A DNA stretch of 34,997 nt from Planctomycetaceae bacterium (GTDB taxonomy: Bacteria; Planctomycetota; Planctomycetia; Planctomycetales; Planctomycetaceae), in NCBI GenBank assembly GCA_002726205.1, contig PBSL01000072.1:1-34997 (forward strand). The letters are read 5' to 3'. Numbering within the stretch: position 1 is the stretch's first letter; every line of letters begins with the position of its first letter. Positions 26,075-28,728 of the stretch are shown in pieces. Position numbers and translations under genes: made by a program. The notes below the pieces were generated by a model. The model did not search any database, was not told the DNA's origin, and was given only the letters and a program-made list of their open reading frames with translations.

Positions 26075-26632
26075 ATGCCCGTGTCGGAATTGCAGACCAC
26101 CGCGCCGCAGGCCGAGACGCCGCGTGAGGAGTTCATCAAGCTCTTCACGCGGTACCAGCGACGGGTCTTTCTCTTCATCCTCTCCCAGGTTCCCAACCCG
26201 GTCGAGGCCGAGGAAATTCACCAGGAGGCCAACGTGGTCATCTGGAGCAAGTTTGACCGGTTCGAACTGGGCACCAACTTCTTTGCCTGGGCCTGCCAGA
26301 TCGCCAATTACGAGGTGCTGAAATACCGGGAAAAACGACGGCGTGATCGGCACCTGTTCAGCGTCGACTTCATCCGCCAGGTGGCCAGTGATGCGCTGGA
26401 ACAGGCTGATGAACTCGAGGAACGCCGCCAGTTCCTGGCGGCCTGCCTGGGCAAACTGCGGCAACAGGACCGCGAGTTGATCCAGCAGCGGTATGCGTCG
26501 GGCGAATCGGGCAAGAGCGTCGCCGAGTTGCTTGGGCGACCGATCAACTCGATCTACCAGTCCCTGTCGCGGATTCGCCGGTCGTTGCTCGAATGTGTCA
26601 ACCGCCAACTCAGCACGCAGGGCACGTCATGA
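26075..26632 (+). CDS. ECF sigma factor, Rhodopirellula/Verrucomicrobium type
   Basis: 185 residues with sigma region 2 at ~20-90 (FTRYQRRVFLFILSQVPN; EEIHQEANVVIWSKFDRF; FFAWACQIANYEVLKYREK) and region 4 at ~125-178 (LRQQDRELIQQRYASGES; VAELLGRPINSIYQSLSRIR, a helix-turn-helix). The style fits the sigma-70 family typical of Rhodopirellula and Verrucomicrobium. Its TGA overlaps the ATG of the next gene (ATGA), the arrangement expected for a sigma/anti-sigma pair. It begins 35 bases after the DUF1501 gene, so it may be transcribed with it. Confidence 0.93.
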   Translation: MPVSELQTTAPQAETPREEFIKLFTRYQRRVFLFILSQVPNPVEAEEIHQEANVVIWSKFDRFELGTNFFAWACQIANYEVLKYREKRRRDRHLFSVDFIRQVASDALEQADELEERRQFLAACLGKLRQQDRELIQQRYASGESGKSVAELLGRPINSIYQSLSRIRRSLLECVNRQLSTQGTS

Positions 26633-26958
26633 GCATCGACAAGTCTCAACGTGAAGATCTGGTGCAATTGCTCGAAGCGTTGTGCGAGGACCGCTTGGGC
26701 CGCGACGGAGCCGCGCGACTGGAAGAACTCGTCCTGGCTGATGCCGCATCGCGTCAATTCTATCTCGATTATGTCGACCTGCACGGAACGCTTTACTGGG
26801 ATACGGCCCGGGGTGTCGATGACTCGGGCCTGATCGAAGTGGCCGATGAACCGCGTGTTGCCGGCGCTGGCGGTCTGTCCGGGACGAGTTCACGTCGCTG
26901 GGGCTTGCGGGTCGTGACCCTGGCGACGGCGGTCCTGGTGGCTGTTGGCCTGGCCTAG
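26629..26958 (+). CDS. Anti-sigma-like membrane protein, ending at an in-frame TAG
   Basis: 109 residues beginning MSIDKSQREDLVQLLEALCE. Residues ~8-65 match the short N-terminal domain found in planctomycete FecR/LamG-type anti-sigma proteins (RLEELVLADAASRQFYLDYVDLHG, read as two parts). A single TM helix lies at ~92-109 (LRVVTLATAVLVAVGLA) and the chain stops on its last residue. The start is fixed by the ATGA overlap with the sigma gene. After the TAG at 26956-26958 the same frame stays open without another stop into the next DUF1549/DUF1553 gene. It is therefore either a complete small anti-sigma protein or the front part of a broken fusion. Confidence 0.72.
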   Translation: MSIDKSQREDLVQLLEALCEDRLGRDGAARLEELVLADAASRQFYLDYVDLHGTLYWDTARGVDDSGLIEVADEPRVAGAGGLSGTSSRRWGLRVVTLATAVLVAVGLA

Positions 26959-27024
26959 CAGCCGTGGCGAACATCGTCGACGCCGGGAATTGTCAGTCCG
27001 GATCGGCCGCCGCAACCGATTGCT

Positions 27025-27042
27025 GGAACCGGAACCGGAACC
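27025..27042 (+). repeat. Three tandem GGAACC units
   Basis: GGAACC repeated three times in the spacer between the TAG and the second DUF1549/DUF1553 start. In the shared open frame it codes for GTGTGT, as expected of a flexible linker between domains. Confidence 0.7.
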
Positions 27043-27048
27043 GGGGTT

Positions 27049-28728
27049 GTGGCAGCGACCGCTGATCCGGTTCGTCCGGTGGATACCCGCCCGGCCCGGA
27101 TCCAGGCCGACCCGGCACGACCGCTGGCCAACAAGGCCTCTCGTCCCACCGTTGCTGAACCGCTGCCGGCTGCCACGATTGTCGAAAAGGGCACAGCCGG
27201 CTCGTTCGAAGCGATTGTCGGTTTCGTCGACGAGCAGTTGGCTGCTTCCTGGCAGGACAACGAGATCACCGCGTCCCCGGTGGCATCCGACTCGGAGTGG
27301 CTCCGACGAGTGTATCTCGACATCGTCGGCCACATCCCCCCGTCGGAGGACGTGGTGGCTTTTCTCAAGGACCGTCGACCGGGAAAACGAGCCGAGGTGA
27401 TTGATCGCCTGCTTGACGATCCGGACTATATCCGGCATTCGACGACAACCTGGGCCAACCTGCTGGTGGGCCGCGTCGAACAACCCGGTGTCGATCGGCC
27501 GATGCTGGAGAAGTTCCTCCGCGGTTGTTTTGCCCGAAACCGACCGTGGAACCAGGTGGTGTCTGCGCTGGTCGATGCCGAGGGCCGAAACGACCGGGAT
27601 GGTGCCACCAATTTCCTGCTCGCTCACCTCAACAATGATGCCGCCCCCGCGACGGCGATCACCATGCGGTTGTTCCTGGGGACACAGGTCCAGTGCACCC
27701 AGTGTCACAACCACCCGTTCAACACCTGGAAACAACAGCAATTTCATGACCTCAACGTCTTTTTCAAGACCACGCGATCGCGTCCGGTCCGGGGGTCTGA
27801 TGCCGTTGAACTTGTCAGTGTGCCCAGCACGGATGGCTCCTACTACGAGGATCGTCAGGGCATCCTGCACCTGGCGCTGCCTCGTTATCGAGGTGAGCCT
27901 GTTGAGCAATCGGAGCTGAAGAACCTGCGTCATGAACTGGCCAGGCGGATGACCGACGGTCGAGATTCCCGGTTGGCCCGCGCGCTGATCAACCGGATCT
28001 GGGCGCGGTTCTTCGGCCACGGATTCACGTCTCCGGTCGATGACATGGGGCCACACAACCCGCCCACCCATCCGGCCGTGCTCGATCGACTTGCGAGCGA
28101 ATTCACCGCCGGTGGTTTTGACCTGAAGCGGTTGATCCGTTGGGTGTGCAATACGAGGGCCTATGGCCTGACCAGTCGGATGGGCGAGACGAACGGCATC
28201 GACGATCCGTCGTCTGGTCAACCGCCCCTGTTCAGCCGGGCCTATGTCAAACCGATGAGTGTCGAGCAACTTTATGATTCGTTGCTGGTTGCGACGCAGG
28301 CGGACCGGGTGACGGCGAGTGACTGGGAGAGTGTTGCCTCGAACCGCTCGCGGTGGCTCACGCAGTTTGTTCACCCCTTCGGAACGGACGAGAATGACGA
28401 GACAATGACGTTTGATGGATCGATCACCCAGGCCCTGGTGATGATGAACGGGGACCTGATCCGCGAGGCGCTGCAATTGCAGCCGGGATCCTACCTCCAC
28501 GGGGTGCTGGTTGGTTCCGACAGTGATTCCGACAAGGTCAAGCGACTGTGTCTTGCGGCCTTGGGCCGATTTCCGACGTCGCTGGAAATGCGGGCGATCC
28601 GGGGAATGCTGCCGTTGCGGTCACCGTCGCAGTCCCGCAACTCGCCCACCCCCGGACCACTGGTCGAGGGGTTGCAGGACGTCTTCTGGGCCTATCTGAA
28701 CTCCAACGAGTTCATCACGGTGCCCTAG
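27049..28728 (+). CDS. DUF1549/DUF1553 protein, copy 2, lacking a signal peptide
   Basis: 559 residues if begun at GTG 27049. DUF1549 covers about 50-245 ([41 protein letters not shown] with CxxCH at 216-220). DUF1553 covers about 300-555 ([52 protein letters not shown]). It is a clear paralogue of the copy at 22928. The first 45 residues are Pro/Ala-rich and hold no export signal, and the GTG has only a poor ribosome-binding signal. Upstream, 30 open codons join it in frame to the anti-sigma-like gene across one TAG. It is probably the periplasmic part of a fused protein. Its stop overlaps that of ligA in a CTAG. Confidence 0.85.

Follow-up and report, generated by a model that had tools for sequence, protein, structure and literature searches.

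In BlaR1 and MecR1, the sensor is paralogous to the enzyme under control. The same logic appears in the RsgI6/SigI6 pair of Clostridium thermocellum, where a cytoplasmic sigma-binding part and a membrane segment are joined to an outer sensor paralogous to a regulon enzyme: the GH10 module of RsgI6 is 57% identical to the cellulosomal xylanase Xyn10D, and in a reporter host SigI6 activated the Xyn10D promoter (PMC4711584). RsgI factors are reported to be cleaved by RseP within the membrane helix (PMC12203970). Here we analyse a stretch of 34,997 nucleotides from a Planctomycetaceae bacterium (assembly GCA_002726205.1, contig PBSL01000072.1, forward strand), referred to as the window, in which the gene of an extracytoplasmic function (ECF) sigma factor is followed by a frame with a single internal TAG. 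In related genomes this frame is uninterrupted and joins a putative anti-sigma domain and a membrane helix to a DUF1549/DUF1553 sensor in one protein, called the fusion below.

Judged by the analogy of its parts, RsgI6 is the closest known system in logic. It differs from the fusion in that its partner belongs to the SigI sigma family and in that its sensor is a glycoside hydrolase, whereas the sensor here is DUF1549/DUF1553. An ECF sigma factor has also been paired with proteins of the latter kind in Rhodopirellula baltica: it is reported that Studholme et al. suggested RB10049 as the regulator for RB10051, a PSD1 and PSC2 protein, and that RB10049 was up-regulated under all three stresses studied (PMC2754498). 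Because this suggestion has been published, the pairing as such is already in print; there, however, the DUF protein is cast as a target of the ECF sigma factor and not as its membrane-spanning regulator. No description of the sensor fusion was found in the open-access literature, and an earlier publication is possible.

The frame that opens at ATG 26629 contains two stops up to position 28728, namely the TAG at 26956-26958 and the terminal TAG at 28726-28728. The DUF1549/DUF1553 frame is this same frame, as GTG 27049 lies exactly 30 codons past the internal TAG and in frame with ATG 26629; a second GTG is found at 27079, 40 codons past the TAG, and the frame stays open for 589 codons beyond it. 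The preliminary description of this DNA had reported one TAG between the anti-sigma/membrane part and the DUF1549/DUF1553 part, in a shared frame without further internal stops, and the sequence confirms this. The open frame by itself is a weak hint at a fusion: given the base composition, 30 open codons are expected by chance with a probability of 0.41, and the 89 codons between the TAG and the DUF1549 domain with a probability of 0.07. The question of a fusion is settled by the relatives and not by the open frame. The product of GTG 27049 has no strong hydrophobic N-terminus within its first 60 residues (the top 19-residue Kyte-Doolittle window scores 0.96 and starts at residue 42) and is therefore predicted to stay in the cytoplasm, which agrees with the earlier remark that the downstream part lacks a signal peptide. 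The further remark that the paralogue at 22928 has a signal of its own also stands, as its N-terminus is signal-like by eye, with a best window of 1.15. The argument from a poor ribosome-binding site is uninformative, because the match to AGGAGG is similarly weak (three to four of six positions) at all six starts compared, those of the neighbouring genes included.

Genome contigs were searched with the window frame, the TAG being read as X, which returned 154 candidate stretches; the best 80 were kept and correspond to 74 distinct loci. Together with the window, 75 loci were judged: 17 have no ECF match above the limit, three end before the next gene, and the rest are 54 evaluable relatives and the window itself. 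The rule separating intact from split loci called for a DUF match no more than 1.5 kb away from the ECF gene; a split locus with the geometry of the window would pass it, and the window did. In all 54 evaluable relatives, a single frame runs from near the end of the ECF gene, via a match to an N-domain profile whose sequences include many of the loci judged, into DUF1549, and the window is the only split locus among those judged. None of the 54 has a stop ahead of the end of the DUF match, and three of these frames are cut later by the end of a contig. The nearest relatives among the best 80 of the 154 stretches, L039, L040 and L041, share 61% identity with the window in the best segment, with residues 1-699 matched. 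The preliminary description, which had proposed a single protein and a search of relatives for intact fusions, is thus supported for the family, and the pattern that it had named as contrary, two genes of which the second has its own signal, is seen in none of the 54 relatives.

A second survey, in which the N-domain alignment (A2) was run against 170 genomes of the family at a cut-off of E 1e-15, gave 136 matches in 134 genomes. The window's match contains the stop, and the other 135 contain none. Frames of at least 616 amino acids hold 128 of the 136 matches, seven lie in short frames that hit contig ends, and the remaining one is the window. When the search was widened to the class (148 genomes, 95 of them with a match at E 0.001), no other stop was found among the matches listed. 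At the alignment column of the TAG, 58 of 59 distinct fusions carry a sense residue and the other one has a gap. Within the source genome, the window's match to A2 is the only one. Two loci were considered as a second copy of the fusion and rejected, since the locus on contig C15 (L128) is a stand-alone secreted DUF1549 gene and that on contig C38 (L127) has a different architecture.

The N-terminal part was examined on a structure model of the intact relative L041 (35 sequences; mean predicted local distance difference test score, pLDDT, 78.5). The model has helices at residues 3-19, 25-37, 39-60 and 94-110, the last of which we take as the membrane helix; linker residues 110-192 have pLDDT below 50, and the DUF1549/DUF1553 domain is mostly confident. 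Lysine plus arginine residues are more numerous ahead of the helix than behind it in 57 of the 59 distinct fusions. Taken together, the model, the hydropathy and this charge bias predict a short cytoplasmic helical domain followed by one membrane helix, with the N-terminus inside. When the L041 model was compared with 805 chains using VIA-align, which re-examines Foldseek's own matches only, RsiW ranked 1st (Z 6.5, 57 residues, 3.3 A), MucA 2nd (Z 6.0, 54 residues, 2.7 A) and another MucA entry 4th (Z 5.6). The RsiW-SigW and MucA-AlgU systems resemble the fusion in having a small helical domain ahead of a membrane helix and an adjacent ECF gene. They differ from it in that there is no sequence match, in that the outer part of the window fusion is far larger, and in that no zinc-ligand set of the RsiW type is seen by eye, one histidine only being invariant in A2. 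H52 and W57 are invariant residues of the N-terminal domain. Searches of 28 A2 members against Pfam touched 14 families, each as a weak match to a single member. Because the ECF gene adjoins, and given the predicted topology and the ranking of RsiW and MucA, a transmembrane anti-sigma factor is the best reading of the N-terminal part, with binding of the neighbouring sigma factor being putative. The anti-sigma role that had been proposed from the sequence is favoured by gene context, predicted topology and a weak structural similarity to RsiW and MucA, and is supported less firmly than the fusion.

We conclude, with a probability of about 0.83, that in the relatives, and presumably in their ancestor too, the locus is one gene encoding a single-pass transmembrane anti-sigma factor, and that the TAG of the source genome represents either a nonsense allele or an error in the sequence. 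Several observations weigh against this conclusion. The two accounts of the TAG are both plausible. Regarding the fusion, 36 of the 170 family genomes have no N-domain match at E 1e-15; the long frames in that survey were scored by length, the DUF1549 content of each not being part of the test; and the 54 loci were drawn from the best 80 of 154 candidates, where intact copies may be over-represented in a list ordered by match length. As for the anti-sigma role, the chains ranked close to RsiW and MucA include a phycobilisome linker in 3rd place (Z 5.8), unrelated helical proteins follow at Z 5.2, differences within 1 Z count as ties, and values of 6-6.5 are weak for a small helical domain. The N-terminal domain of the window matches no Pfam or NCBIfam family, the A2 profile has no sequence match in the PDB at E up to 5, and the hydropathy of the window helix is 1.55, a value of 1.6 being reached by 58 of 59 relatives.

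The sensor part of the window is assigned by Pfam scores of 134.9 bits for DUF1549 and 116.7 bits for DUF1553, against cut-offs of 29.8 and 28.5. A CxxCH motif is present in 58 of the 59 distinct fusions, and the C, Q, C and H columns of CTQCH are invariant across 44 aligned sensor and secreted proteins (alignment A3). The window's own sensor part was modelled (mean pLDDT 85.9) and has no Foldseek match under E 0.001. Its top structural matches listed by VIA-align are mostly phycobilisome linker domains with Z of at most 6.2, which is too weak to use, and no cytochrome c is among the matches listed. Weak matches to CCP_MauG occur in three of the 44 proteins, the best at E 0.0078. Because no cytochrome c appears among the structural matches listed, "cytochrome-like" is a name and not a result, and heme binding is putative. 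Sensing through a cytochrome-like domain is accordingly the least supported part of the preliminary description: almost every fusion has the CxxCH motif, but the matches listed include no fold of cytochrome c.

Some side observations concern the same domains. Among the 44 proteins of A3, weak Pfam matches were obtained to PF00427 in two and to DUF4214 in one, and the structural set of phycobilisome linkers is coherent but weak. These matches concern the sensor (27226-28605) and its secreted paralogue; by eye, segments of the forms YLDxxGxxPxxxE and LxxLxRxPTxxE resemble each other. Eight of the 44 have weak matches to DUF1800 (best E 0.00042). DUF1800 usually neighbours DUF1501, and DUF1549/DUF1553 may be the planctomycete counterpart of DUF1800.

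The genomic neighborhood of the fusion is conserved, the gene order being secreted DUF1549/DUF1553 protein, DUF1501 protein, TIGR02989 ECF sigma factor and fusion (Table 1). All 49 intact relatives that have 1.5 kb or more of upstream sequence show a DUF1501 match ahead of the ECF gene, and all 42 with at least 4 kb show an additional DUF1549/DUF1553 match. The ECF sigma factor of the window scores 159.4 bits against TIGR02989 (cut-off 124.55) and is the sole one of 14 sigma matches in the source genome to exceed that cut-off. In the window, the start of the fusion overlaps the stop of the ECF gene by four bases; such an overlap is possible in 36 of 59 distinct relatives when the start nearest to an overlap is chosen. 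The window's sensor and the secreted paralogue are 50% identical in alignment A3. In a tree of 35 sensor and nine secreted DUF proteins, the two groups are separated by one branch (support 100/99), the position of the root not being known.

Another cluster of the source genome, on contig C38 (L127, 1500-8000), encodes a sub-threshold TIGR02989-like ECF sigma factor, a membrane protein with a FecR domain and then a 914-residue PSCyt1/PSCyt2/PSD1 protein. It resembles the window in the succession of an ECF gene, a membrane protein whose short N-terminal region contains LHAxL (by eye) and a DUF1549/DUF1553 gene. It differs in that the outer domain is FecR (PF04773, 29.3 bits) and in that the DUF1549/DUF1553 protein is a separate third gene.

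Table 1. Features of the operon and of the interrupted fusion, with positions in the window.
Feature	Position	Strand	Basis
Secreted DUF1549 (PSCyt2)/DUF1553 (PSD1) protein, paralogue of the sensor	22928..24676	+	Pfam; signal-like N-terminus by eye
DUF1501 protein (PF07394)	24735..26039	+	Pfam
ECF sigma factor TIGR02989 (Sig-70_gvs1, Rhodopirellula/Verrucomicrobium family)	26075..26632	+	NCBIfam score
N-terminal part: predicted cytoplasmic helical anti-sigma-like domain (~residues 1-60), arginine-containing juxtamembrane stretch, predicted membrane helix (~26896-26955)	26629..26955	+	L041 model, structural comparison
In-frame TAG, private to the source genome among the sequences examined	26956..26958	+	Frame reading and relatives
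Linker from membrane helix to sensor	26959..27225	+	Equivalent L041 stretch predicted disordered
DUF1549 (PSCyt2) domain, putative extracytoplasmic sensor	27226..27777	+	Pfam
CTQCH (CxxCH) motif	27694..27708	+	Conserved in alignment
DUF1553 (PSD1) domain, putative extracytoplasmic sensor; frame ends with TAG 28726-28728	27928..28605	+	Pfam

With regard to the nature of the TAG, we give slightly better than even odds to a real and recent nonsense allele that truncates the protein, which is one version of the conclusion above. The domain matches in the source assembly contain no internal stop in any of 96 PSCyt2, 50 sulfatase or 14 sigma matches, so false stops appear to be uncommon in this assembly, although the counts cover matched domains only. 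There is also a precedent: a review states that truncated RseA needs no site-1 cleavage to be cut, and a like bypass, proposed for truncated MucA, would account for the constitutively mucoid mucA mutants (PMC10202637). If the allele were old, selection on the part behind the TAG should have relaxed, and this is not observed. With L042 as outgroup, the DUF part of the window has 28 private amino-acid differences against 34 in L039, 28 against 31 in L040 and 32 against 33 in L041, and the N-terminal part of the window has fewer than these relatives (4 against 10, 3 against 10 and 2 against 7, in the same order). The row for the secreted gene of L039 in this comparison was disregarded as a wrong match (51% distance), the short contig probably lacking the gene. 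A long-standing pseudogene is thus not supported, since the DUF part of the window shows no higher rate of change than that of L039-L041; a recent loss would look alike, and a recent allele would show no relaxation. The same absence of faster evolution fits an error made in sequencing or assembly, or a consensus that took up a minority variant, in which case the cell has an intact fusion. We hold this account to be quite plausible, at odds somewhat short of even: the interruption is lone and private, all evaluable relatives are intact and the source genome is a draft of 76 contigs, but the stop-free domain matches of the assembly speak against an error.

The two other explanations, a true gene split and programmed readthrough, are disfavoured by the relatives. 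A membrane anti-sigma factor standing alone, with the DUF1549/DUF1553 part restarted at GTG 27049 or 27079, could use the GTG codons present 30 and 40 codons past the TAG, but the GTG 27049 product would be a cytoplasmic protein for lack of a hydrophobic N-terminus, and neither the 54 relatives nor the other 135 N-domain matches contain a split or a stop, which makes this explanation very improbable. Even less credit is due to programmed UAG readthrough yielding a short and a full-length protein. It could draw on the long open frame beyond the TAG and on the RNA around it, which folds mildly better than shuffled sequences (z -1.57, with 10 of 200 shuffles as good), but the TAG occurs in no relative examined. 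Moreover, no CUA anticodon is found among 35 tRNA matches, a set that is incomplete, being without tRNA-Ile and tRNA-Cys, in a draft genome that is 96% complete, and TAG is an ordinary stop here, ending three of the four operon frames, namely those of the secreted protein, the DUF1501 protein and the fusion. As no UAG-reading tRNA is among the 35 matches of this incomplete set, TAG ends these three frames and the fold is mild, recoding is unlikely, and readthrough or stop reassignment is further disfavoured by the lack of TAG conservation. Of the four possibilities listed in the preliminary description, a nonsense change and a sequence error therefore remain, and the relatives disfavour an ordinary gene split and a conserved readthrough site.

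Two further observations on stop codons were made. The tetranucleotide CTAG is scarce in the window (8 occurrences against 24.6 expected), and four of these sites coincide with the internal TAG and with the stop codons of three operon frames (secreted, DUF1501 and fusion); we draw no conclusion from this. A selenocysteine tRNA (anticodon tca; L193, contig C63:573-664) is present, and because of it the source genome may recode UGA, which has no bearing on UAG.

The frame, the TAG, the intact fusion of the relatives and the operon are observed, and around them we infer anti-sigma activity, topology, proteolysis and an effect of the TAG as follows. The small N-terminal helical domain would lie in the cytoplasm and hold the ECF sigma factor encoded just upstream; the membrane helix and a disordered linker would connect it to the DUF1549/DUF1553 sensor on the outer side, which is paralogous to the secreted protein of the operon's first gene. 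A signal at the sensor would lead to cleavage, by a site-1 and then a site-2 protease, or to a rearrangement, and the ECF sigma factor would be freed. Contig C2 of the source genome encodes an RseP-type protease of family M50, with PDZ domains inserted into its protease domain. Should the TAG be real, the product would be 109 residues long and would have the sigma-binding domain and the membrane helix but no sensor. It would then resemble an anti-sigma factor already cut at site 1, and its probable fate would be destruction by the site-2 protease, with the sigma factor permanently on; a constitutively active ECF sigma factor is predicted because truncated RseA bypasses site-1 cleavage, truncated MucA is proposed to do so, and an RseP-type protease is encoded. 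Alternatively, the truncated product could be a stable, locked-off anti-sigma factor. A tentative extension, to which we attach clearly less than even odds, is that the operon monitors its own product: the anti-sigma factor would bear a membrane-tethered paralogue of the secreted protein, the two could recognise one ligand or compete for one partner, perhaps the DUF1501 protein, and the ECF sigma factor would be set free once the secreted machinery encounters its substrate or falls out of balance.

Pfam assigns no function to the families DUF1549, DUF1553 and DUF1501, the first of which is matched 96 times in the source genome. A conserved anti-sigma factor with a DUF sensor, encoded in an operon with another such protein, would offer a route to the signal and to the regulon. 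If the TAG is real, it is a natural truncation that removes the outer part of the fusion, and should the operon monitor itself, it would be a natural allele that lacks the sensor and signals constitutively. A self-monitoring operon, if true, would provide a regulatory handle on a family that has no assigned function and about a hundred matches in this genome.

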